DNA from: Halobacteriales archaeon QS_5_68_33
GTDB lineage: Archaea > Halobacteriota > Halobacteria > Halobacteriales > Haloarculaceae
DNA: 64,000 bases
Direction of reading: 5' to 3'
NCBI GenBank assembly: GCA_003023785.1
Contig: PXRS01000076.1
Span: 1-64,000, forward strand
Shown here piece by piece: positions 25,382 to 55,254 of the stretch. The notes under the pieces are model-generated. The model did no database searches, had not been told where the DNA came from, and was given only the letters and a program-made list of their open reading frames with translations. The first letter of the stretch is position 1. Each line of letters starts with the position of its first letter. The translations under genes and the position numbers were made by a program.

Positions 25382-26533
25382 ATGTCGATGGACTTCAGAC
25401 ACGAACGAGTCGACGGGAATCCGCCGGCCGGACGCATGACGAACCTGCACGCGACGGACATCACCGGCAACGGGAAACCGGACATCGTCGTCACTGCACT
25501 CGGCGTGAACCCGCGTGTCACGGTCCCCGGCATCGGCGAACTGCAGCTCCGGTACACATCGGGTGTGATGCGACTGATCCCCTATCTCGAGACGAACGTG
25601 TTCTGGTACGAGAACGCCAGCTGGGAGCGCCACGCCGTCTCGACGACGCGGGACCTCCAGATAGGTGTTGGAAGCGCGACATGTGAGTTCGGGGAGGACG
25701 GTCGGCCGGGGCTGGTCGCGGGACAGGGGACTGGCGAGTCCGACGTCTACTGGTTCGAGTCGGGCCCGGACCCCCGCGAGCCCTGGGACCGGTACACCAT
25801 CACCGACGCTTTCCAGAAGTACCACGACTTGGCGGTGGCCGACGTGGACGACGACGGCGAACCCGAACTGGTAGGTCTCTCACAGGAGAGCGACACCCTG
25901 TTTTACTGCGATGTCCCTGCAGACCCGCGTCGCTCGCCCTGGCCCGCGGAGTGTCTGCACGTCGTCGACGACGATATCCACGCCGAGGGACTCGCAGTCG
26001 TCGATATCGACGGTGACGGCAGGACTGAAATCGTCGCCGGCCCCGCCCTCTATCACCGGACTGACGCCGGTTCCTGGGAGCGCGAGACCATCGCGACCGG
26101 TTGGGAGTATACGCGAGTTGCCGTGGGTGACCTTGACGGCGACGGTGAGCACGAGGTCGTCCTCTCGGAAGGGGACTCCCCCGCACTCGGGACTCGGCCG
26201 GGACGCGTCGCGGTGCTGGACCCGCCGGACTGGGAGCCGACGTTCCTGCGCGAGGGGATGTACTGCCCGCACAGCCTCCAGGTCGCTGACTTCGACGGCG
26301 ACGGCCGCCTCGACGTCTTCGTGGCCGAGATGGGACTGTTCGACAACGACGACCCCGCGGGGCTGGTCTTTCGGAACCTGGACGACGGCGAATTCGAGGA
26401 GCACGTCGTCAGTCGCGGGATTCCGACGCACGAGGCGAAGGCGGTCGACCTGACGGGTGACGGCAGCCCGGACATCGTCGGTAAATCCTACGAACCGACC
26501 GCACACGTCGACGTCTGGTACAACGAAACCTGA
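25382..26533 (+). CDS. FG-GAP/VCBS-repeat beta-propeller protein
   Basis: Repeated VADVDDDGEPELV, VVDIDGDGRTEIV, VGDLDGDGEHEVV, VADFDGDGRLDVF; no signal peptide seen. Confidence 0.88.
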   Translation: MSMDFRHERVDGNPPAGRMTNLHATDITGNGKPDIVVTALGVNPRVTVPGIGELQLRYTSGVMRLIPYLETNVFWYENASWERHAVSTTRDLQIGVGSATCEFGEDGRPGLVAGQGTGESDVYWFESGPDPREPWDRYTITDAFQKYHDLAVADVDDDGEPELVGLSQESDTLFYCDVPADPRRSPWPAECLHVVDDDIHAEGLAVVDIDGDGRTEIVAGPALYHRTDAGSWERETIATGWEYTRVAVGDLDGDGEHEVVLSEGDSPALGTRPGRVAVLDPPDWEPTFLREGMYCPHSLQVADFDGDGRLDVFVAEMGLFDNDDPAGLVFRNLDDGEFEEHVVSRGIPTHEAKAVDLTGDGSPDIVGKSYEPTAHVDVWYNET

Positions 26534-29594: not shown

Positions 29595-30024
29595 CGAGGC
29601 GTCCCAGGCACGGCTCCGCCGACAGCCGGTACGGCAGACCTCGACCGGGTCTCGGCGGTAGATCGCACGTCGCCATTCACGCCCCGTAGCCGGCGTCCGA
29701 ACTGAGCCCTTCCAGGTTATGCGGTGTCTAATAATGAGGTCTGTGCAGGAAAAGCGAACACCGAGACTCGATGAGTGCTATTGAGTACGGGACAGTCGCG
29801 ATCGTCGAGCACGGACGAGTCATTGAGCACGGGCGAGTCAACTTTCCGCGTGTGCGTGAGGCGGTGGGATCTGTCGGTCATACCGGATCTCCGGCAGGGG
29901 TCCCACAGTTGCGACAGCAGTCGTCCGACCGGACGACGAGAGCAGACGTGGTCATCGACAGCCGTAAAGGTGTGACGTCGGACCGTACTTGTATCACCGG
30001 GAACGGGACCGGATACCGAGAGCG

Positions 30025-31527
30025 ATGAGGGACCGATTGCGGTCGTTTATCAGGCGACTGGTTCCGAGGGGGGATGTCCTCGAGCAGACAATAATGAGCG
30101 GCGCGTGGGGCGGGTTGCTGAACGTCTTCTCGCGGGGACTGCAACTGGGGATGCTGGTCCTGCTCGCGAACCTCCTCAAACCGGCGGATTTTGGACTGCT
30201 CGGGATCGGCTTGTTGGTGTTGAGCGGTCTGCGGAACTTCACCACGATGGGGTTGGACGAGGCGGTCATTCAGCGCGAGGAGGACGACGTCAACCGATAT
30301 CTGAACACGGTATGGGGGCTGGAACTGCTCCGCGGGTCCCTGCTCGCGGCGGTGCTCCTGGCGCTCGCGCCGGTCATCGGGTCGGTGTTCGGTGAACCGC
30401 GCGCGCCGGATGTCGTTCGGGTGCTCGCGGCCTCGCCGCTGTTGATGGCGCTTCGTAACCCCGCTGTGGTGTATTTCAGGAAGCGACTCGACTTCCACCG
30501 GGAGTTCGCCTACCAGATGAGCGGCTCCGTCTCGCGCTTCGTCGTTTCCGTCGGGTGGGCGCTGGTTTCCCCGACGGTGTGGGCACTCGTGTTCGGGCTG
30601 CTTGCGTCCGAGGCCATCAAATCGGTCTTTTCGTTCGTCGCTCACGAATACCGGCCGCGGCCGGCGCTCGACCGCGAGCGGGCGGCGGAACTCATCGGCT
30701 ACGGCAAGTGGCTCACGGGTAATTCGATCCTGTATTTTCTCTACAGCGAGGGCGATGACGCCGTCGTCGGGTGGCTCCTCACGTCGACGATGCTCGGGTT
30801 CTACCAGACCGCCTACCGGCTGTCGAACGCGCCGGCGACCGAGATCTCGCAGGTGATCGGCAAGGTCATGTTTCCGGCATTCTCGACGTTGCAGGACGAC
30901 CCCGCAGCGCTCCGTATGGCCTACTACCGGGTGTTACAGACGTCGATGTTCGTCGCCTGCCCGCTCGCGTTCGGTATCGTCGCCGTCGCCGAGGTGTTCG
31001 TCCCGACGTTCATGGGCGAGGAATGGCTGCCGATGATCACGGCGATGCAGCTTCTGGCGGTCTACGGCCTCCTCAGGTCGCTCGGGAAGACGATGAGCCC
31101 GCTCTGGAAAGCGATCGGCCGTCCGGACTACGTCACGAAACTCTCGCTGTTGCGGGTCACACTCATAGCCGTGTTGATCGTTCCGGTGACGAACGCTTAC
31201 GGCATCGAAGGGGTTGCGGGGCTCATCGTCGGGATATTCGTGTTCCCCATGATCCCGCTGGACACGTACCTGATAATCGAGTCGATCGACGGATCCTACC
31301 GGCGGTTCGTCCGGGAACTCGCGTATCCCATGGTCGCAAGCGTTCTCATGTACGGTGCGGTCACGGCTGTCCGCGAGGAGCTGGCCCTCGGCGCGGGCGT
31401 TCTCGAGTTCGTGTTGCTCGTCGTCGTGGGCATCGTCTCTTACGTGGCGGTCGTCGTCGCGCTCGCGTTCAAGTTCGAGTGGGGCATCGAGGACAACATC
31501 CGGGAGATCGTCGACACCGTCGGGTGA
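30025..31527 (+). CDS. Polysaccharide flippase (Wzx/MATE-like)
   Basis: SGAWGGLLNVFSRGLQLGMLVLLANLLKPADFGLLGIGLLVL; ~12-14 TM. Confidence 0.92.
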   Translation: MRDRLRSFIRRLVPRGDVLEQTIMSGAWGGLLNVFSRGLQLGMLVLLANLLKPADFGLLGIGLLVLSGLRNFTTMGLDEAVIQREEDDVNRYLNTVWGLELLRGSLLAAVLLALAPVIGSVFGEPRAPDVVRVLAASPLLMALRNPAVVYFRKRLDFHREFAYQMSGSVSRFVVSVGWALVSPTVWALVFGLLASEAIKSVFSFVAHEYRPRPALDRERAAELIGYGKWLTGNSILYFLYSEGDDAVVGWLLTSTMLGFYQTAYRLSNAPATEISQVIGKVMFPAFSTLQDDPAALRMAYYRVLQTSMFVACPLAFGIVAVAEVFVPTFMGEEWLPMITAMQLLAVYGLLRSLGKTMSPLWKAIGRPDYVTKLSLLRVTLIAVLIVPVTNAYGIEGVAGLIVGIFVFPMIPLDTYLIIESIDGSYRRFVRELAYPMVASVLMYGAVTAVREELALGAGVLEFVLLVVVGIVSYVAVVVALAFKFEWGIEDNIREIVDTVG

Positions 31528-31690: not shown

Positions 31691-31770
31691 ATACGGTCGG
31701 TTGTACCGGTGTACCGGTATTTCGCCGACCGATTCGACGAAATCCGGAACTGATTGACAACCGACCGTAT
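31691..31770 (+). repeat. Family A palindromic mini-element, copy A4
   Basis: Perfect 14-bp ends ATACGGTCGGTTGT / ACAACCGACCGTAT, 80 bp. Confidence 0.93.
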
Positions 31771-34700
31771 CACTCGGCGCCGTGAGTCAGTGTGACATGT
31801 CCCAGAAGCCGAATGTCGTAGTGGGGACGGCCACTGATCTCCGAGGGGTTGTCGATAGCGCCCTTGAACTCGCCCCAGTGGGCGTAGGCAAGTTCGAACG
31901 TTGAGGTGGATTCCTCGACCGACGAACCGGCGAGTCGCTCGTCGTTCCACGACCACGCCGAGGTGTCCTCCGTGTACTCCTCCAACCAGTTGAACGCTTT
32001 CCACAGCGAGGAGCCGCTTTTCCTGTCGCTCGGCGCGTTGTAGTCGTACAGTTGCGTATCGTCGTACCGCTCGAAGACCAGCAGCGACATCATCATCGCC
32101 TTCAGGTTGTAGGCGCTGTATCCGAACGCGCCGCTCCGGTGCAGTTCGTGTGTGAATACACCGTTCCTGTTCGGGTCGGCGCTTCCGTCGTAGGCGCGGC
32201 CGTCCCTGTAGTTGTTTACGAAGTCGTTCCACGGTCGCTGTTTGCCGTCGTCACACGTCCGGCACTGCCCTTTCCACATGCAACGTGCCGTCTCCATCCT
32301 GGCGTCGTCCTGGAGATACGCCGCGGACACGGTCCTGTCGGCGATGCGCCAGGCCCATTTGTTGTTGTACTCACAGAGGTCACTGTCCGGATACGGCTCG
32401 GACGCGGTGAAGGTGTCGTGTCGGTCGCTGACCCACTGCTGGAGCGCGGACTCGGCGTCGGGCGAGTCGCCACCATCCCACGGGCGTGACCCGTCATAGT
32501 TGTTCCAGGCGGCGTGGCCGCGGACGAGCGCCGCCGCGTACACGAAGGCGGGGATCGTGATGTGTTGTTCGATGGTCGTCTTGTTGTTGACGATGTCCGT
32601 CGTCGGCTCCATGTAGGTGTCATCGGCGAGACACCAGTGGTGGAGGATTTCGACGGTACGCTCGGCGTATCTGTCCTCGCCGGTGAACTGATACGCGAGG
32701 CCGCAGTCACGGGCCCACTCTGACATCCTGATGGCGTTCAGGTAGTCGTCGCGGTCGGTCGTCTGCTTGAAACGGTGGTCGCCGCCGTCGTCAGTCACCG
32801 ACCGGAGCGTGGTCGACAGCGCGGCCTTCGCGTCCGAGATGAGCTCGTCGTACGCGTCTTCCCAGGGCTGTTGCCCGTTGTCGACGCGCTGTTTCTGCGT
32901 CTGGAGCTCGCTCTCCGTAACGAAGACGTAGTTCGATGACGTGGTTTCGGTGCCGTCATCGGTGTTACCCCCGTCGTCGAAGTCTGTGGATGCGCCGCCG
33001 AAGGTACCACGGTATCGCTCCGCCGCCGCGCCGAAGTCGAACTCGCCCGCGTCAGCGAGTTCGTGGGCCGTCCCTGGCGTGTCGTGCTCGAAGTACGCGT
33101 GGAACAGCACCTCGTGGTCCTGCATCCAGTCGTACATCTTCTGGACGAAGGTGGGGTTTACGTCGCCACCCCACTCCTCCTCGTCGTTGCTGAGCCCCCA
33201 CTCGGGGATGGCAATAGGGCTGTTGACGTCCGTGGCGAGGTCCGCGATGTCGTTCAGCCCGACGCCGTCGGATCCCCACTTGTTCCCTCGACAATGATTC
33301 TCCTCCCAGACGTACTCCTGGACGGTTTTCCGGTCGGTGTCGCTCGCGGTGTCGTAATCGATCCCACCCGGCGCTTGCGCGGGCTTCTCGTAGGCGGGTG
33401 CGGAATCGTAGATGTCCGCGCCGACGATGGCGTACTCCGCGCCGGGATAGTGGGCGAGAACCTCGCTGGTCGGCATCTGTGCGGAGTGGACCAGCGGTGC
33501 CCAGACAGTCTCCAGGTCGTCGCCAAGCACCTCCCGGCAGGACTCGACGACCTGTCGGTATCCTTCGGCCCACGTCTCGGGAGACACGTCGGTACCGACC
33601 GGCGAGTACGGCGCGACCTCGATATTGAATTCGTTCCCGATCCGGAGAACCAGCGTCTCCGACGTGAACCCGTCGGCCGCGAAGTTCTCCGCCATCTCTC
33701 GGAACCTGTCGTTGTGCTCTCCGGCAGCGAGGTCGCGAAGCGCAGTCGCCTGCCCGACGTCGTCAACTTCCTCGTTGGGAAGCATCGGAATGTGGGGCAG
33801 GAATATCCGGTTTTTCCCGTTTGCGACCCACTCCGGGAAGTCACGTGTGTCGAAGTCGACGAAATTATGCCACTTGCGTTTGCCGTGACCGACCGAAGCT
33901 GCCTGTGCCTCCTCGTCGAACCACGACTCGTACGGGCCGAACTGCTCGGCGTACCAGCGCCACGCGCCGTTCGAGACGGTCCCGGGGTCAAAGACGTCGC
34001 TGTTCGACCTGTCGTTCTCGCTGTCGTCGGGCCCGCAGTCGCCGCTGGATGGGTCGAGGACGTCGCTGGTCTCGCCGGAGGGCGGGGACTGCGCCAGCCA
34101 GCCGATGAAATGCCAGTTGCCGTCGCTACTGCCCGAGTAGAACCCGCGCCCTTTCTCGTGGCTCTCGTCCTCGATGAACGCAAGGTGGTGGTCCGAGGGG
34201 TCGTGTTTGTTCAGGTGTTTGGGTTTCATGACCTGGACAAGGCGCTCGTCCGAACGGTCACTGTTTTTCTTCGGGCTGATGGATCCGCTGGTCGTCTCCG
34301 CTGGCCGACTCTGTTCGAGCCATCCGACGAAATACCACTTCCCGTTGCCGCCGGTGTAGAATCCGCGCCCCTTCTCGTGGCTCTCGTCCTCGATGAGCGC
34401 GAAGTCGTGGTCACCCGGCACGTACTGTTTCAGGTCCTCCGGCCGGTAGACCTGGATCAGACGATGCGTGGTTTCGGTTGCATCCTTCGCCGGCGTAACT
34501 GTCCCGGAAGCCGTCTCTTCCGGGCGGGTCTGTGAGAGCCACCCGGTGAATGCCCACCGGCTGGAGCTGGTTCCGGAGTAGAAGCCGCGACCACGTTCGT
34601 GCTCGTTCCGCTCGATCAACGCGAGGTGGTGGTCGCTGGGAGCGCTTCCACACAGGCCACTCGGTTTGGGCACCTGCCGCAGCCGGTGTCCATCGCTCGC

Positions 34701-34928
34701 CGAAGCCACCCCCGTTCCGATGGTCGCGATGCCTGCCGACGCACTGATTAATTTGAGCATACTTCGCCGGGATGCTCCCGACGGACTGGTTTCAGGCCCA
34801 CGAGAGGCCTGTTCGGTCCCGCTCGCGTTCAGCCGGTCTGACCCGTTGAAAGTACTGTTTAGGATACCGTTACCAAAACCGACTGTATCGATAAGCTCTT
34901 CCAACTGACGGATACGACTTCCATCCAT
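31770..34928 (-). CDS. Exported multidomain protein: 3 tandem ~70-aa modules + GH-A-like barrel + alginate-lyase-like domain
   Basis: RRSMLKLISASAGIATIGTGVASA TAT-like signal; RIGNEFN and IPEWGLS clan GH-A-type Glu; C-terminus parallels 35411..36871. Confidence 0.75.
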   Translation of the reverse strand: MDGSRIRQLEELIDTVGFGNGILNSTFNGSDRLNASGTEQASRGPETSPSGASRRSMLKLISASAGIATIGTGVASASDGHRLRQVPKPSGLCGSAPSDHHLALIERNEHERGRGFYSGTSSSRWAFTGWLSQTRPEETASGTVTPAKDATETTHRLIQVYRPEDLKQYVPGDHDFALIEDESHEKGRGFYTGGNGKWYFVGWLEQSRPAETTSGSISPKKNSDRSDERLVQVMKPKHLNKHDPSDHHLAFIEDESHEKGRGFYSGSSDGNWHFIGWLAQSPPSGETSDVLDPSSGDCGPDDSENDRSNSDVFDPGTVSNGAWRWYAEQFGPYESWFDEEAQAASVGHGKRKWHNFVDFDTRDFPEWVANGKNRIFLPHIPMLPNEEVDDVGQATALRDLAAGEHNDRFREMAENFAADGFTSETLVLRIGNEFNIEVAPYSPVGTDVSPETWAEGYRQVVESCREVLGDDLETVWAPLVHSAQMPTSEVLAHYPGAEYAIVGADIYDSAPAYEKPAQAPGGIDYDTASDTDRKTVQEYVWEENHCRGNKWGSDGVGLNDIADLATDVNSPIAIPEWGLSNDEEEWGGDVNPTFVQKMYDWMQDHEVLFHAYFEHDTPGTAHELADAGEFDFGAAAERYRGTFGGASTDFDDGGNTDDGTETTSSNYVFVTESELQTQKQRVDNGQQPWEDAYDELISDAKAALSTTLRSVTDDGGDHRFKQTTDRDDYLNAIRMSEWARDCGLAYQFTGEDRYAERTVEILHHWCLADDTYMEPTTDIVNNKTTIEQHITIPAFVYAAALVRGHAAWNNYDGSRPWDGGDSPDAESALQQWVSDRHDTFTASEPYPDSDLCEYNNKWAWRIADRTVSAAYLQDDARMETARCMWKGQCRTCDDGKQRPWNDFVNNYRDGRAYDGSADPNRNGVFTHELHRSGAFGYSAYNLKAMMMSLLVFERYDDTQLYDYNAPSDRKSGSSLWKAFNWLEEYTEDTSAWSWNDERLAGSSVEESTSTFELAYAHWGEFKGAIDNPSEISGRPHYDIRLLGHVTLTHGAE

Positions 34929-35410: not shown

Positions 35411-36871
35411 TTATCCGTCCGAGAGGTCGAATCGGTTCGCGTGAGTCAGCGAGGTCCAGCCGAGGTGTCTGATGTCGTACGTCGGTCGACCGGCCGACCG
35501 AACCACGCTGAGGTACTCGGGGCTTTCCCACAGCGAGTGGGCGATCTCGAACACCGATGCGTAGGTTTTCATCTCGAAGTTCGTCACGCTGTCCGACCCT
35601 TTCCCCCACTGCCACCGCGAAGGTAATTTCATGTACGGGCTCATGAATTCGAACAGCTTTCTAAGCGTCGACCCGTCTCCCGGGTCCGTCGGTGCGTTGT
35701 AGCCGTACAGGTCGACGTCGTGCTGTCGTGCGACCTCCGCGGTCATCGTCAGCGCCTTCATGCCGTAGACGTGATAGCCGAACCCGTCTTCACGCGCCAG
35801 CTCGCGTTTGAGATACCCTTTCCCGGACAAGGACGGTCTGTACTGGCTCCAGGGCCGGGGTCGCTCCTTGTCGTGGGCGACGGTTTCGCACTTCCCTCGC
35901 CACATGCAAAACGCCTTCTCCAGGCGAGACTGGTCGTCGAGATAGCTCGCCGCACTCGCGAGCGTGGCGATGCGCCACGCCCATATATTGTTGTACTGGT
36001 AGTACTTCGGAGCGGGGATCGAACTGACGAACGAGCCGACCCAGTCGGCAAACGTCGCTTCGAGGTCGTCGCCGGTCTTCTCCGTCCAGTACGGGTGGCC
36101 GTCGAGGAAGGCGGCACCGTACCACAGCTTCGGTATCGTGACGAACAGCTCGATCCCGGTGTTGTTGTCCGCCATGTTGCCGTCGGGTTTCATCCGCGTT
36201 TCCGGGTCGTGACACCAGTGGTACAGCAGGTCGATGGCCCGTTCGGCGTACTCGTCCTGTCCCGTGAACCAGTAGGCGAGTGCCGTGTCCCGGACGGCCG
36301 TGGTCATGTCGATCGCCGCGTGGTAGTCGTGGCGGTTCTCGTCTTTCCCGAACCTGTGTGGGTCGTCCCAGTTCGGGGCGCCGTCGTCAACGACGCTGCG
36401 CGCCTCCATCTCGAGCGCCTCGTCGGCGTCACGGATCGCCCGGGTGTACGCGTTGACCCACGGTTTCCGGCCGTCCCTGACGCGCTCGGCGACGGCCTTC
36501 AGCTCGTCGTGCCCGACGTACACGTAGTGGTCGCGAGACGGCACGGGCGTCAGTGTCGGTGTCGGCGTCGGCGACTGTCTTCCCGTCCGGCTATTCGAAC
36601 GGGTTCCGGACGTTGACGTCGGCGTCCCTGTCAGTTCCGTCTCCAGCGGGGTCGGCCGCTGGCTCTCTCCGCCGGAACCGACCCCGAAACAGCCGGTGAG
36701 ACCGGCCGTTCCTGAAGCGAGGAAGGCGAGCACCGAACGCCGACTCCTCGCGTTGTCCGATCCCCCGTCGTCCTCACCCGCTCGTTCACTCCCCGAACGC
36801 CGGTCGGTTTCTAGCTCTGCCTGGCCCCCCTCGCGACTGCTCTCCAGTTCCCGAGGGATCCCGTCGGTCAT
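35411..36871 (-). CDS. Alginate-lyase-like lipoprotein
   Basis: RRSVLAFLASGTAGLTGCFG TAT/lipobox; ERAIDLLYHWC, YNNIWAWRIATLASAASYL, RPTYDIRHLG. Confidence 0.8.
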   Translation of the reverse strand: MTDGIPRELESSREGGQAELETDRRSGSERAGEDDGGSDNARSRRSVLAFLASGTAGLTGCFGVGSGGESQRPTPLETELTGTPTSTSGTRSNSRTGRQSPTPTPTLTPVPSRDHYVYVGHDELKAVAERVRDGRKPWVNAYTRAIRDADEALEMEARSVVDDGAPNWDDPHRFGKDENRHDYHAAIDMTTAVRDTALAYWFTGQDEYAERAIDLLYHWCHDPETRMKPDGNMADNNTGIELFVTIPKLWYGAAFLDGHPYWTEKTGDDLEATFADWVGSFVSSIPAPKYYQYNNIWAWRIATLASAASYLDDQSRLEKAFCMWRGKCETVAHDKERPRPWSQYRPSLSGKGYLKRELAREDGFGYHVYGMKALTMTAEVARQHDVDLYGYNAPTDPGDGSTLRKLFEFMSPYMKLPSRWQWGKGSDSVTNFEMKTYASVFEIAHSLWESPEYLSVVRSAGRPTYDIRHLGWTSLTHANRFDLSDG

Positions 36872-37115: not shown

Positions 37116-38318
37116 ATGCGAATCGCAGTCCTGTCACCTCGAAACCCGGTTCCGGTTTACACTGGGCTTCTGGAGCGGACCTACCAGACGTGTCGTTTCC
37201 TCGGTGAACGACACACGGTGAACGTCTTCTTTCCCGACGAACCGGGACGACAGGACGAGGAAGGACGAGTGCCTGACCACCAGCCGTTCGAACGGACGAA
37301 GCTAGAGTCCCCGGTCCTGGACGTTCTCGGACGCGCTGTTCCGGATTACTCCGCGCTGAAGGGGCTGTACCATACACACCCTTGGCTCTACGGGTCACTC
37401 CGCTCGACCCTCCAGCGGTTCGATCCGGACTTACTCGTCGTCGAGTTCCCATACCTGATGCCGCTGACGCGGGCTGCCAGCCGCGGCTTCGACTGTCCCG
37501 TGATCCTCAGCGAGCACAACGTGGAGTACAAGTTCGCCGAGCGACTCGATATCCCGCTGTGGCGGTTGCTCCGCCGGTTCGAGGTGCACGCTTGCAACCA
37601 GGCCGACGCCGTGTTTACCGTCTCGGAGACGGACCGCGACACCCTCGCCGCGCAACTGGACGGTGGCACCGAGGTCGGCGTCGCACCCAACGGCGTTGAC
37701 GTCGGCCGCTACCGCCCCGCCAGGGAGCGTGATTCGGCCCTCGTCCGCGAGCGGTACCAGCTCACCTCGCCGGTACTCGTGTTCCACGGCAACCTCGGGA
37801 ACGCACAGAACGCTGAGGTAGTCGACCTCCTCGTCGAGGACGTCTTCCCGGCGGTCAGGCGCGAGTTTGACGACGCCAGTCTGATGCTCCTCGGGGCCGA
37901 CCCGCCCGAGGAGACGCCTCCCGGCGTCGTCACGACCGGCGTCGTCGACGATCTCCCCGCCCACATCGCCGCGGCCGACGTCGCGGTCGCGCCCATGCTC
38001 TCGGGGTCCGGCACGAACCTGAAGATCCTGGAGTACCTGGCCACCGGCGTGCCGGTCGTGACTACACGGATCGGCGCGGAGGGACTCCCCCTCCGGCATG
38101 GGGAGACCGCGGCTCTCGCCGACCCGGCCGACGTGCCCGCGGCGACGGTGCGGTTGCTCCGCGACCCGGACCGCCGGGAGACGCTGGGGACGAACGGACG
38201 CGACCTCGCGGTATCGGAGTTCAGTTGGTCGCGGACGCTCGAACCGTACGAGCGGGCCATCGAGCGGCTGCTGGACACACACCGCGCGAGCGAAGGCATG
38301 AGGACCACGAACGCATGA
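37116..38318 (+). CDS. Glycosyltransferase family 4
   Basis: SPRNPVPVYTGLLERTYQTCRFLG; VFHGNLGNAQNAEVVDLLVEDVFPAV; MLSGSGTNLKILEYLATGVPVV. Confidence 0.92.
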   Translation: MRIAVLSPRNPVPVYTGLLERTYQTCRFLGERHTVNVFFPDEPGRQDEEGRVPDHQPFERTKLESPVLDVLGRAVPDYSALKGLYHTHPWLYGSLRSTLQRFDPDLLVVEFPYLMPLTRAASRGFDCPVILSEHNVEYKFAERLDIPLWRLLRRFEVHACNQADAVFTVSETDRDTLAAQLDGGTEVGVAPNGVDVGRYRPARERDSALVRERYQLTSPVLVFHGNLGNAQNAEVVDLLVEDVFPAVRREFDDASLMLLGADPPEETPPGVVTTGVVDDLPAHIAAADVAVAPMLSGSGTNLKILEYLATGVPVVTTRIGAEGLPLRHGETAALADPADVPAATVRLLRDPDRRETLGTNGRDLAVSEFSWSRTLEPYERAIERLLDTHRASEGMRTTNA

Positions 38319-39658
38319 ACGTCCTGCTCATCACCGTCGATTCGCTGCGCAAAGACGCCGCTCCCCAGTTCGGGTTCGGGCGGGAACTGTTCGCGGAGAC
38401 GCTCGGCGAGGACATCCCCGAGACCCGGTTCGAGCGCGCGTTTGCGACCGGACCCGGAACCACGCCGTCGTTCCCCGCGCTCCTATCCGGCACGATGCCG
38501 CTGTCTTACGGGGGGCTGGGCCCGCTGTCTACCGACCGGCCGCGGGTGTCGTCGTTCCTGGCCGAGTCCGGCTACGGGACTGCGGGGTTTCAGTGCAACC
38601 CGTTCCTCTCGACACACTTCGAATACGACAGGGGATTCGACACCTTCGAGGACTACCAGAACCCCCTCATGGGGCTGGCGACGAAGGTGTTCCCCCGCGG
38701 CATCGAAATCAACAACCCCCGTCTCAGGCGGGTCGACGACTACCTCCACCTCACGGACGGCATTCGGAAGGGTTACCAGCTCGTCCGGGGCAAACCGCGT
38801 CCGTACGTGAGCGCGGACGTCATCACGGACGACACCATCGACTGGCTGGACCGCGCCGAGTCACCGTTTTTCTGCTGGACCCACTACATGGATGTCCACC
38901 ACCCCTGTTACCCCCCCGACGAGTACCGCGACCGCTTCGGTGTCGGTTCCGTGACCCAGTCCGATGTCGGGGAGTGGTACTCGGCGGTGCTCGACGACCC
39001 GTCGATGCTCGACGACGAACAGACCGACGCGCTCCGTCGCCTCTATCGGGCCGCGATCGCCTACACCGCGGACCAGGTGCGGCGGATCCTGACCCACCTG
39101 CGTGAGACCGGCCGCCACGAGGAGACGCTGGTCGTTCTGACCTCCGACCACGGGGAACTGTTCGGCGACTGGGGGCAGTACGGCAAACCCGAGCGGATGT
39201 ACGACGAACTCCTCCACGTGCCGCTCGTCGTCGCCAACGGCCCGGACTACCTCGACGACGCGGTCGGGGACCTGGTCAGCCTGCTCGACGTGCCGCCGCT
39301 GGTTCACGACGCCATCGGACTGCCGGTCCCCGACGCCTACGACGGCCGGCGACCGGGCGTCGACGAATCGCGGGCGTACGTCCTCGCCGAACACGAGGTG
39401 GAAGGCGACGTCGTGGTCGGCGCGCGCTCCCGAGACTGGCTCTACGAACAGGACGAGGTCCGGGACGAACGCAGACTGTACGACCTCCGGGGCGACGGCT
39501 GTCGGAGCGTCCCCGTCGAGGCACACGCAGACGCGTCCCGAACGGTCAGGCGGGCGGTCTCCGAACGGTTCGCCGACCTCGAGCTGGGAACGGACCGGTG
39601 GGAAGCGGATATCGACGGCGACGTCGAGGGCCGACTCGAGGACCTCGGATACCTCTGA
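38315..39658 (+). CDS. Sulfatase-like / AP-superfamily protein
   Basis: MNVLLITVDSLRKDAAPQFG; VVLTSDHGELFGDWGQYGKPERMYDELLHVPLVV; ATGA overlap. Confidence 0.9.
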   Translation: MNVLLITVDSLRKDAAPQFGFGRELFAETLGEDIPETRFERAFATGPGTTPSFPALLSGTMPLSYGGLGPLSTDRPRVSSFLAESGYGTAGFQCNPFLSTHFEYDRGFDTFEDYQNPLMGLATKVFPRGIEINNPRLRRVDDYLHLTDGIRKGYQLVRGKPRPYVSADVITDDTIDWLDRAESPFFCWTHYMDVHHPCYPPDEYRDRFGVGSVTQSDVGEWYSAVLDDPSMLDDEQTDALRRLYRAAIAYTADQVRRILTHLRETGRHEETLVVLTSDHGELFGDWGQYGKPERMYDELLHVPLVVANGPDYLDDAVGDLVSLLDVPPLVHDAIGLPVPDAYDGRRPGVDESRAYVLAEHEVEGDVVVGARSRDWLYEQDEVRDERRLYDLRGDGCRSVPVEAHADASRTVRRAVSERFADLELGTDRWEADIDGDVEGRLEDLGYL

Positions 39659-39691: not shown

Positions 39692-41116
39692 TCAGCTGCC
39701 GGTCGTCTCGTCGGCATACCAGCGGTGAACCATCCCTTCCTCGTCTTTGAACAGCAGCGCGGCGCTCCCGTCGTCGCCCGACTCAATAGCGAACTCACCG
39801 CCGGAGAGGCCCGTGGATGTGGCGTCGGCGTAGCGGGTGAGCCCGGAATCGACCGCCGGTCCGGGACTGCCGCCTTCGCCGTCGTAGCGCTGCATGTCGC
39901 CGAACGTCCAGATATCGCCGGTAGCGTTCGGGGAGACGGCGACGTCCGAGGACGGGCCGAAATAGTACGACGGGCCGGCCGCGTCCTTGGTTACCTCGAT
40001 CTTGGCGTTACGGACCGTCCCGTTGTTGCGCAGCAAGCCGATGATAGTGTTCCCGTTGTTGAACTCCAGCTGGACCATCGACTCCACCTCGGAGTTGGTG
40101 TTCTGGACGTAATCGAGTCGGGTGGACGCGTCGCCCTGGACCGAGACGATGGGTCCGGAAACCGACCTGACCGGTTCGAAATTGATGCCGCCGACATGGA
40201 GGTGTCCGTTGCTGCTGGCCTTGATGCGGATCGCCCGGCCCGCGGACCCGCCGATGTTGATGAATCCGATGTTGGCCTTCACTCCGCCGAAATCCGTGTA
40301 GAATACCGTATCTCCCGTTGCGTTTCCGGCGTCGATGTATCCGATCTGTGTCCCGAGGAGTGATTGCTCGCGTTCGACGAGGAACTCGCGGCCGTGGTTG
40401 GCGTCGTACCCGAAGTCAAGGTGGCCCCAGCTGGAGCCGAACGGCGACCCCCGCTCGCAGTGAACCACCGGGTCGATCCAGTCGCGAAAGGCGAGGTTCC
40501 CGATGTTGAACTGCTTCGGGTGGACTCCGCTGTCGTTGGCGAAGTGGAGTGCGGACCCGCCCGTCCGGCGCTCCGCGTCACCACCGCTTATCGTGAACGC
40601 GTCCAGCAACACGAACTTCCCGTCGGTCAGGTGAGTCACCCTGAAACCGTCGCGCTCGAGGTTGGTGAACGTGATCTCGCTCGTGTGTGCCCCCCAGCCG
40701 ACGAACTCGACGAACTGCGAGGGGACGAGCGGTTTCGCCTCCTCAACCTCCGTCGGCGGCAGGAGGACGGTCCCGTACCCTTCGCGGTCGCCGACGGCGT
40801 CGATGGCTGCGAGGGCGTCCGCGACCGGCGTCGCCGTCTCCGCCGGGTCGACCGCGTCTCCCGGGCCCAGTCCCGGCGCGATCGGCACGACGAACCCGTT
40901 CCTGGCTCGTTTGACCGTCGGATCGGTGGGCGTTTGCTGGCTGTCGGCACCCGACGACTGCAACCCGCCGTTCCCGTCGTCAGTCGCCGTCGAGGTGTCA
41001 CGGGACGTCTCGGTCTGTCCCTCGTTCGAAAGCCACTGGCCACACCCAGCGAGCCCTGCCATCGACCCGGTCAGAACTCCGAGAAAGGAGCGCCGTCCCG
41101 GATGTCCCCTTCGCAT
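39692..41116 (-). CDS. TAT lipoprotein with probable right-handed beta-helix
   Basis: RRSFLGVLTGSMAGLAGCGQ; repeated short beta-rich turns (NIGNLAF, NIGFINIGG, HLHVGGINFE). Confidence 0.6.
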   Translation of the reverse strand: MRRGHPGRRSFLGVLTGSMAGLAGCGQWLSNEGQTETSRDTSTATDDGNGGLQSSGADSQQTPTDPTVKRARNGFVVPIAPGLGPGDAVDPAETATPVADALAAIDAVGDREGYGTVLLPPTEVEEAKPLVPSQFVEFVGWGAHTSEITFTNLERDGFRVTHLTDGKFVLLDAFTISGGDAERRTGGSALHFANDSGVHPKQFNIGNLAFRDWIDPVVHCERGSPFGSSWGHLDFGYDANHGREFLVEREQSLLGTQIGYIDAGNATGDTVFYTDFGGVKANIGFINIGGSAGRAIRIKASSNGHLHVGGINFEPVRSVSGPIVSVQGDASTRLDYVQNTNSEVESMVQLEFNNGNTIIGLLRNNGTVRNAKIEVTKDAAGPSYYFGPSSDVAVSPNATGDIWTFGDMQRYDGEGGSPGPAVDSGLTRYADATSTGLSGGEFAIESGDDGSAALLFKDEEGMVHRWYADETTGS

Positions 41117-50541: not shown

Positions 50542-53500
50542 TCAGTCTTCGAGCGCGAGCGACGCGAGCATCGCCTCCAGCTGGACGCGTTCGCTGGCGC
50601 CGCGGGTGATGCGGTACTCCGTCTCGCCGATGCGGTCGAGCAGCCTGACCGCGGCCTCGTCGTCGAGGTCGAACTCCCAGACGCCGCGGTGGAGCTGGTC
50701 GATGACGTCGCCGCCGGCGATACCCTCCTCGGTCAGCAGGCGGTCGAGCGTCGACCGCGCGGCGGTGAAGTCGCCGTCCAGGGCCTGCTCGACCATCTCG
50801 TGGACCGCCTCCGGGCGCGCCGTGGAGGTCAGCGCGTAGACGGCCTCCTCGTCGACCACCTCGCCCGTGACCGAGGCGGCCTGCAGCGCGTTGATCGCCT
50901 TGCGCATGTCGCCGTCGGCCGCGTAGACCAGCGCGTCCACGCCGCCCTCGGTGAGTTCTATTCCCTCCGCGTCGGCGATGTGGCGCATTTCCTCGGCGAC
51001 CGCCTCGTCCGACAGCGGCGAGAACCGGAAGACCGCACAGCGGGACTGGATCGGGTCGATGATCCGGCTGGAGTAGTTACACGAGAGGATGAACCGGACG
51101 TTGTTCGAGAACTGCTCCATCGTCCGGCGGAGCGCGGATTGTGCGTCGCTCGTGTTGTGAGTCAGGATCCCGTTGGCGAGCATGAAGTTCGGCGTGCCCT
51201 TCATGGTGATGTTGTAGGCCTTCCCCCGGTGGCTGTATTCGATATTGCGTACCGTCGCTGTCTGGACTGGTTGTAGCCCACCGTCGGATACGAGAGCGGG
51301 TTCGAACTCGTCTCTCGTGTAGTGTTCGTGGTGAGGGAGTTCACCGTCCCCAACGACGATGAATCTGTAGTCGTCACCGTACGTTTCGAGGAATTCTTCT
51401 ACCTTCTCGGTCTGCCCCCACAACTTTGCAACGCCCTTGACTTCGATCACGATATCGTCGATCAGGAAGTCAGGGTGGAAGACCGAATCCGACAGTTCGA
51501 ACTCCGGTTCGTATTCGTATTCAACCCCGGCGTCCTGTAGCGCCTTCGCAACCTCGTATTCCCAGCCTGAGCGGACGAGGTGGCTGAGTTCCTCACTGTA
51601 TCTGGTGTTCCCACCCGTCGGTTCATGCCCCATCAGCGCTTCCGAAACCTTCTGTGCGACTTCGGGGTTGCGCATCGGGTTGTTGTCGCCGGTAATGTCA
51701 CAGACGGGATAGTCACAGTTTTCGGTGGCCTTCTCGACCAGTTCGGCTTTCCGGTCGTCGTATAGGTCGTCCCACCACTCGGCGGAACTTCGTCCGATCT
51801 GTTCTTTTACTGCTTCGGGGTTCGCGTCAACGACCCACTCTTCCCACGGAGTTCCGGAGCGCCGCTTGCTGATCTTCTCGCGGAACCGATCGATGGCTTC
51901 CTCGTCCATCTCCCAGACGGAAACACCGTGGAACTCCCCTCCGTAATTCGGGTTGTTCTCGCCCGCAAGCCTCCCGTCGGAGAGCGTCTCGACTATCTTC
52001 TCTCGGCGTTCGTCCGACCACTCCGTCCCGTACATCGGGTTGCTCTCCCCCTGCATCTCGCGACTGTGGCCTTCGTTCTTACAGTCGACGGAGCAGAACC
52101 TCCCCGCGGTCCAGTCTCCACAGGTGTCACACCGTGACACACCGATCTCGTCTCCAAAATCGGCGATCTCGTCCCCGGGAGATAGCTCTCGAAGTTCTTT
52201 CTCGACGAGTCTACCGTCGTCTCCGACCACGAAAAACGGGTGCCCGAGGCTCGCGAGCATCGTCCGTCCGTCGTCCAGTTCCAACTCGAAGAAGTCGGCC
52301 ACGCCCGAATCGACGAGCTTTCCTTTGTCCGACTGAACCTCGTTCGTCTCGAAGTCGACGGAGGGAATCGGTTCTCCGTCTTCGCTCACCTCTTCTATCG
52401 GCTTCACTTCGGGAGAGGACGGATACCCGGTCACGACTTCCGTCCCCGGTGGGACACACAGTGCGTCGGCCTCGTCGAGGAAGATGATCCGGTGGTCGAC
52501 GCCGCCGAAGGAGGTGCGCGCGAAGCTCTTGATCCGGTCGCGGACCACGTCGATGCCGCGTTCGTCCGAGGCGTTGAGTTCGAGGAAGTTGTCTTCCCAG
52601 TCCTCGCCGTAGAGTTCGCGAGCGATGGCCGAGGCGCAGGTGGTGTTGTGCATCACCGTCGGAACATGACCGGCGACGTAGTTTCGGGACTTCGGGACGG
52701 TGAGGTCGTAGACGCGACGGCTGTCCTGCTCGTGTTCGACACCGGTCACCTCGTCGAAGTAGAGGGAACTCTCGACGAGGCGGTCGAGCGTCCGGATGTC
52801 TTCGAGGACGTCCATCGAGAGCATCTCCGTCGCGACTGTTTCGAGCCGTGACGCGACGGTCGCGAATCGCGGGAACGACCGGAGCTGGATGTCGTCGTCG
52901 TTGAGCAGGTTCGAGACGTCGGTACCGAGCATGTGCGTTCCGTCCGTGACCTGTTCGTGGGTGACAGCCAGTGCGTCGATCGCGTCCCGGAGTGTCTGCT
53001 GGACTCGATCCGTGTCCGGTAACTCCTCGTCGGCGACCAAACCGACGAGACGCTCCGCCCGCTCGGCGTACGGCGTCCGCCGACCGTCTGCGTATTCGAG
53101 GAGGCGGTCCTTCCGGATCCCGGTTTCCGATTCGACCTCGCGCCGCGTCTCGATCGGCTCCAGTTCCGGTCGTGTCTCCGTCCAGACGACCGGAACCTTG
53201 TCCGTCGCAGTCAGGTCCGCTTCGAGACGGGACAACGCTTCGATGACCTCCTGTGTCCGTTCGATCCTGTCGGTAGCCGATTCGAGGACGGCCACGAGGT
53301 CGTCCTCGTAGTTCTCCCGTCCCGGGGTGTCGGGGTTGAGCGACGCCGTACAGAGTTCGGATTTCGAGAGGTGAAGCGCGTCACACAGGTCGTCGACGGC
53401 GCGCTGGACGGGAACGGTGTCGTGATTGGGATTTCCGTCTCTGGCCGCGTTGGACTCCAGTCGGGTCGATTTCGGTTCGACCGTGAATCCGATTTCGTCT

Positions 53501-54939
53501 GCGAAGCGAGCGAGGTGGGTCGAACCGGAGACGTAGAGCGTGTGGTACTCGCGTTCGACGTCGCTGCCGTTCGTCGGAGCTTTCCGTTCCCGTTTCCGAC
53601 GGGACGGGATCCCGAAGTCCGCCAGCAGGTACGAGAGGAGAGTGATCAGGCCCCCGTCCTTCTGGGTGAGTTCGATGATGCCCGATTCGGTGACGTGTCC
53701 CTCCGCGTCGAACACCGCCCGGAGGAAGGCGCTTCGGCTGTCGACATCGGCACGGAGTATCGTCGATCCGAACGGGCTGTCGCCCTCCCCGTCGACCGCC
53801 TTCGCGAACACGTCGAAACACGAGGACAGGTACTCCGTCAGCGTCCTGCTGTTGAGTTCGACGTACGGGACCCCCTGCTGTGTGCCACGTTTCGGCTCGA
53901 CGGCGAACAGGTCTCGTGCGGCCGTCTCGAACTGGTTCAGCAGCGTCTCGTCGGTGTTGTAGAACTTGATCCGACCGTCCGAAACCCGTGCTTCGCTGAT
54001 CGCGAGGCCGACGAACCGGGTCAATTCGGGCGTTACCTCCCACGGCGGAGTCACAGACGGTGACCGGTTGTTGTTCGTCGGGGACACCCACTGGATCGCA
54101 TCGATATGGCGTCGGAGTTCGTCTCCGGAGACATCGAGGGACCGGACCGCCGAGAGCGGGCAAGTCGTACTCGTCGCGTCGAGCGCGTCGTCCGATACCT
54201 GCCGGTTGACTGCCAGCACGTACTTGCGGGGTGCATCGACAGCCGCCACCGCATCGTCGACCGTCTCCTCGCGCCGGATCGCCCGCAGGATCTTCTTTTT
54301 CTGCCCGACGTGGCCGGCCTCGTAGGGGATCTCGTATTCCCGTGCGAACTCGTCGGTGACGTGGACGAACGTGCGTTCGCCGTCCATTTCGTGAAACCAG
54401 TCGAGTTTCGAGTCGCTCTCCGGGAGGGGCGCTTCGAGCGGTCGAGCGACCCGGTCTCCCTCCTCGAGACCTTCCGCGTTTCGCCACTCCAGCCCTTCGC
54501 TCGTGACGACGAGCAGTCGATGTTCCGGCGTCACCGTCATCTCTCCCCCGTCCCGCGTCCGAACGGTCACGACCTCGTCTGCCGTTTTGCCGAATCGGTA
54601 GCTCGGCGACGTGTACTCGAACTCACCCCGGTCGGTCAGTGTAAGGACTTCGAGTCCGTCGTCAGCCCGTTCGAATCCCTCGATGTCGCCCGCGACTGTC
54701 TCCATTCGTGACAGTCCTTCGCTCGTGAGAACCGGTGTCTCTCCCGTGACGCACTTCCCGACGCCCGCCGGCCCCGAGAAGAGGAGGTGGGGCAGGTCGC
54801 GGCGCTCGACGTAGCTCCGGAGGCGTTCGACGCTGTCCTCCTGCCCGACCACCTCCTCTAAGGTCTGCGGGCGGTACTTCTCGATCCAGACCGCGTCCCG
54901 TCCGGCCCGCGCCTCCGCCTCCGCGTCGGCCTCGCTCAT
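50542..54939 (-). CDS. rfcS: Replication factor C small subunit precursor with two inteins
   Basis: Exteins join to [20 protein letters not shown]...[24 protein letters not shown], ~327-aa clamp-loader subunit. Confidence 0.97.
51154..52458 (-). mobile_element. Intein 2 (435 aa) in Walker B region of RfcS with NUMOD3-like repeats and PD-(D/E)XK-like nuclease
   Basis: Begins [11 protein letters not shown], block [12 protein letters not shown], ends [11 protein letters not shown]; internal [68 protein letters not shown]...[14 protein letters not shown]. Confidence 0.93.
52645..54753 (-). mobile_element. Intein 1 (703 aa) in Walker A motif of RfcS, LAGLIDADG-type
   Basis: Begins [11 protein letters not shown], block [19 protein letters not shown]-like [14 protein letters not shown] and [12 protein letters not shown], ends VPTVMHN|T. 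Confidence 0.95.
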
Positions 54940-55053
54940 GTCCGGACGGAGGCGACGCCCGTCCGTAAACCTACCGAGAGGACCCCGGCGCGGGGGTCGC
55001 TGCGCCGACGGCGCGGGCGACACGCTCAAGACGCGGCGGGCGAACACCCGGGT

Positions 55054-55254
55054 ATGCACGTCACGGTGTCGGTCGTCGGCGAGGACACCCGCGAGGTCAG
55101 CGTCGCGGAGGGCGACACCTACGCCGACCTGCTCGCAGGGCTGGCTTACAGCCCCCACGAGGTGTCCGTGCTGGTCGACGGCCGGCCCGTCCCCGCGGAC
55201 CGGCCGGTCGACGCCGACCGCGTCGAGGTGCTCCGCCTCGTCAAGGGCGGGTAG
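55054..55254 (+). CDS. samp2: Ubiquitin-like small archaeal modifier protein (SAMP2-like)
   Basis: 66 aa, beta-grasp, C-terminal VLRLVKGG diglycine. Confidence 0.9.

Follow-up and report, generated by a model that had tools for sequence, protein, structure and literature searches.

The described systems closest to the protein studied here are the glycoside hydrolase family 26 (GH26) enzymes, which include mannanases and lichenase/endoglucanase H and have a His-Glu (HE) motif, the alginate-lyase superfamily PF05426 (structures 3nfv, 9fi3 and 8bdq), with its NNH motif, and the carbohydrate-binding modules (CBMs) of multi-domain glycoside hydrolases and lyases, which hold catalytic domains on polysaccharide and are attached to a carbohydrate-active catalytic domain. 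We analysed a 64,000-nucleotide stretch of haloarchaeal DNA (the window) in which the gene 31770..34928(-) encodes a protein of 1052 aa having, in this order, a Tat-type signal, three tandem units, a GH26-type domain and a PF05426 domain. From this layout, the product is predicted to be an exported two-domain enzyme with the units as its N-terminal accessory array. The Tat-type signal (aa 53-77, SRRSMLKLISASAGIATIGTGVASA; 34698..34772(-)) was recognised by inspection of the sequence. Its SRRS.L motif is also present in the orthologue from a second genome of the same family, G146. No promoter or terminator was predicted ahead of the gene by a scan built for bacterial promoters.

The units lie at 34491..34685 (unit 1, aa 82-146), 34272..34463 (unit 2) and 34050..34244 (unit 3), all on the minus strand. 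The sequence-only reading had described this region as three tandem copies of a secreted module of unrecognised family; the copies and the lack of a recognised family were confirmed, and secretion is supported. Pairwise amino-acid identity among the units is 53-56%, the global alignment scores of unit pairs lie ∼19-21 sd above those of shuffled sequences, the period from unit to unit is 74 and 73 aa, and the Tat-type signal immediately precedes unit 1. Every unit is made up of a conserved core of ∼54 aa and a variable tail, and the linkers joining the units are rich in Ser/Thr/Glu. We observed 29 positions that are invariant across the three window units and 21 that are invariant when the three units of G146 are added; in this six-unit alignment, five invariant aromatics per unit fall within one GFY.G....W.F.GWL stretch. 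At the DNA level the window copies are 56-69% identical, which indicates old protein-level repeats and no recent DNA duplication. No fourth copy was found in the genome's own assembly (2.4 Mb, ∼71% complete).

As to the family, neither the window units nor the six-unit set gave a match above threshold in Pfam, NCBIfam or PHROGs, and the six-unit profile had no credible match among PDB sequences; the units thus have no sequence match to a defined CBM or other known domain in these collections. None of the carbohydrate-binding families in Pfam is matched by the unit sequences, and the top domain-family match, SHIRT, was under its cut-off (E 0.06-0.3). A plasmid search with the three-unit array gave no significant match. 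Weak matches to phages were mostly to tail proteins, and one alone was below E 0.01. As this best match is 25% identical (E 5e-3) and is unrepeated among other phages, homology to phage tail proteins was rejected.

In a search of 148 genomes of the family, the units occurred in the window's own genome and in G146 only. No credible addition came from samples of the class (394 genomes), the phylum (394) and two other families (171 and 18), which are partial and overlapping and leave room for a wider occurrence. A second genome of the genus of G146 (78% complete) gave no unit match, and no relative emerged from GTDB and viral contigs when these were scanned for the units or the whole protein with short peptide patterns, a method that would overlook distant forms. 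Matches in four further genomes (G211, G296, G439 and G644; E 0.0007-0.008) were rejected as partial only: the frames at the match in G211, G296 and G439 lack the remainder of the unit, and the match in G644 has two stops inside. We concluded that the units are a previously undescribed small module of narrow distribution.

The orthologue in G146 (L007:11865-15020(-)) is 63% identical over its whole length and has the same three units. Positional counterparts match best between the two proteins (63% for unit 1, 59% for unit 2 and 69% for unit 3), and units 2 and 3 of G146 are 62% identical to each other. This correspondence by position makes it probable that the triplication came before the split. 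A flippase, a glycosyltransferase, a sulfatase-fold protein, a second PF05426 protein and a beta-helix-like protein are common to both loci in differing order, the genes of the G146 locus being named via their similarity to window genes.

Most of the evidence for function is carried by the two catalytic-type domains, which were absent from the sequence-only reading. The GH26-type domain (aa ∼319-645; 32994..33974(-)) was identified with a profile of five haloarchaeal homologues, namely the window middle region and four others, which reached GH26 structures with a best E of 2.1e-9. Singly, four of the five matched PF02156, the window member being the one without a match. Glu433 (GNEFN; 33630..33632(-)) falls in the alignment on the Glu of the HE motif, and we take it to be the acid/base from established knowledge of GH26. 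The His before this Glu is absent, as the motif reads GNEF in both the window protein and its orthologue. Glu576 (PEWG; 33201..33203(-)), which is invariant in the five homologues, is the probable nucleophile. On profile similarity together with a catalytic-motif Glu, the middle domain is classed as a predicted GH26 member.

The C-terminal domain (aa ∼663-1052; 31773..32942(-)) matched PF05426 with an E of 2.8e-24 and 86.5 bits, against a gathering cut-off of 22.2, and its profile matched the three PDB structures named above. The NNH motif lacks its His, reading NNK in the window protein and NNI and others in haloarchaeal relatives; the replacement by Lys makes the lyase activity of this domain uncertain. 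Of 295 genomes of the order, 26 gave relatives of the domain, the window's own genome and G146 being counted, and the three other relatives that were examined at full length are without such units.

The gene is located in a polysaccharide cluster of a flippase, glycosyltransferases, epimerases, a sulfatase and a second lyase. Among these are the polysaccharide flippase at 29989..31527(+) (PF13440, E 1.3e-81), a glycosyltransferase at 37116..38318(+) (PF13692) and the sulfatase-fold protein at 38225..39658(+) (PF00884, E 1.2e-35). The second lyase is a neighbouring single-domain PF05426 protein at 35411..36871(-), which shares 42% identity with the fused lyase domain; the PF05426 fusion may have arisen from this neighbouring duplicate. 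By inspection, this neighbour has a lipobox-like cysteine, and neither a membrane anchor nor a lipobox was seen in the tandem-unit protein.

Other genes of the window were also noted. The protein at 39692-41116(-), with a lipobox, no Pfam match and a C-terminal tail that by eye resembles a tail-fibre hairpin, is 58% identical to its orthologue in G146 (L007:15429-16967). An FG-GAP repeat protein at 25382-26533(+) has a weak match to the C-terminal domain of rhamnogalacturonan lyase family 11. The gene at 50542-55158(-) encodes a protein like the replication factor C small subunit, apparently with two inteins, as judged by inspection from its long insertions and intein-type motifs.

AlphaFold models of the units were of low confidence for both the single unit (six rows; pLDDT 52) and the three-unit array (pLDDT 43), and the two agree in short strands only; the single-unit model draws the GFY.G....W.F.GWL stretch as a hairpin. 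A PDB structure search was uninformative, with no match below E 0.001. The sole cysteines of the array region are Cys93 in unit 1 (34650..34652(-)) and Cys298 just after unit 3 (34035..34037(-)). Both are conserved in the orthologue and, on these two sequences, could form a disulphide closing the array. If they pair, the start and the end of the array are spatially near, and a compact arrangement becomes more likely than a string of separate beads.

In our assessment, there is about an even chance that the units are a glycan-binding accessory array of an enzyme in a surface or exopolysaccharide cluster. Glycan binding is the best reading because the array stands ahead of two domains of carbohydrate-active type in a polysaccharide cluster, because lectin-like repeats occupy the equivalent place in distant GH26 homologues, and because the five invariant aromatics of each unit lie in one stretch. 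Acidic residues are also in smaller excess in the array (D+E minus K+R of 2-4 percentage points) than in the catalytic domains (7-14), which would suit the binding of an acidic glycan. In this mechanism the units would bind polysaccharide made by the cell itself and keep the catalytic domains attached to it in the manner of CBMs, and the enzyme would probably trim the cell's own surface polysaccharide; the three-fold array would be closed by the Cys93-Cys298 tie. The evidence for binding is positional and compositional, and residue conservation drawn from two genomes tells little of a binding surface. Of the binding roles put forward by the sequence-only reading, carbohydrate binding thus gains from the domains behind the units, from the repeats of the GH26 relatives and from the aromatics, but not from any match to a CBM family, and S-layer binding is left without sequence or context evidence for such a contact. 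The stronger proposal, a new CBM family forming a disulphide-tied closed three-fold array specific for haloarchaeal surface polysaccharide, we regard as doubtful.

The same features were weighed against other roles. Linkers rich in Ser/Thr/Glu between the units, a copy number of exactly three in both species and the tail proteins among the weak phage matches would fit a structural stem or oligomerisation array, which spaces the enzyme from the cell or joins chains and binds no glycan. However, the invariant aromatic and charged residues in all units exceed the apparent needs of a spacer, and the phage link comes down to the lone unrepeated match; we judge this role rather unlikely. Anchoring or regulation of the enzyme through binding of the units to a protein or surface partner, such as the S-layer or another matrix protein, is unlikely. 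A protein in which no anchor was seen, and whose neighbouring lyase has a lipobox-like cysteine, would profit from attachment to the surface, but it is lectin-like repeats that occupy this place in the distant GH26 relatives. The short aromatic units, the strands of the low-confidence models and the sub-threshold SHIRT match could also reflect a diverged known small beta domain (e.g. an H-type lectin, a SHIRT-like domain or a tail-fibre hairpin module) invisible to sequence methods; as no library gave a significant match and direct comparison with the H-type-lectin-like repeats was negative, we find this quite improbable.

Should glycan binding be borne out, the units would be the first members of a new archaeal carbohydrate-binding family and would offer a way into the processing by haloarchaea of their own surface polysaccharide, a subject on which a literature search found nothing direct. 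Otherwise they would be one more accessory domain of the usual sort, narrowly distributed. The binding idea lends itself to a direct test, since related GH26 proteins have, at the equivalent place, unrelated repeat modules.

These modules are the H-type-lectin-like repeats of two distant haloarchaeal GH26 homologues from G403 and G186 (L022:5595-7415(+) and L023:6391-8262(-)). Pfam detects one repeat per protein (PF09458; E 1.2e-6 in L022, and E 0.025, under the cut-off, in L023), and the three repeats in each were seen by eye only and escaped a BLAST self-comparison. Like the units, they precede a homologous GH26 domain, and the genes lie in polysaccharide clusters. However, their sequence is unrelated, the units matching neither PF09458 nor the repeats themselves on direct comparison, and these proteins are without a PF05426 domain. 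With the described GH26 enzymes, the middle domain shares the profile match and the conserved motif Glu, but it has NE where they have HE and on its own falls short of the Pfam model for GH26. The C-terminal domain is likewise close to the PF05426 superfamily in Pfam and profile matches, but the haloarchaeal proteins do not conserve the His of NNH. The CBMs of multi-domain glycoside hydrolases and lyases resemble the units in being small, tandem, aromatic-rich modules placed before catalytic-type domains of a secreted protein, and the units are attached in one chain to predicted carbohydrate-active domains of GH26 type and PF05426; they differ in that the units are without sequence similarity to any Pfam CBM family and their binding is putative.
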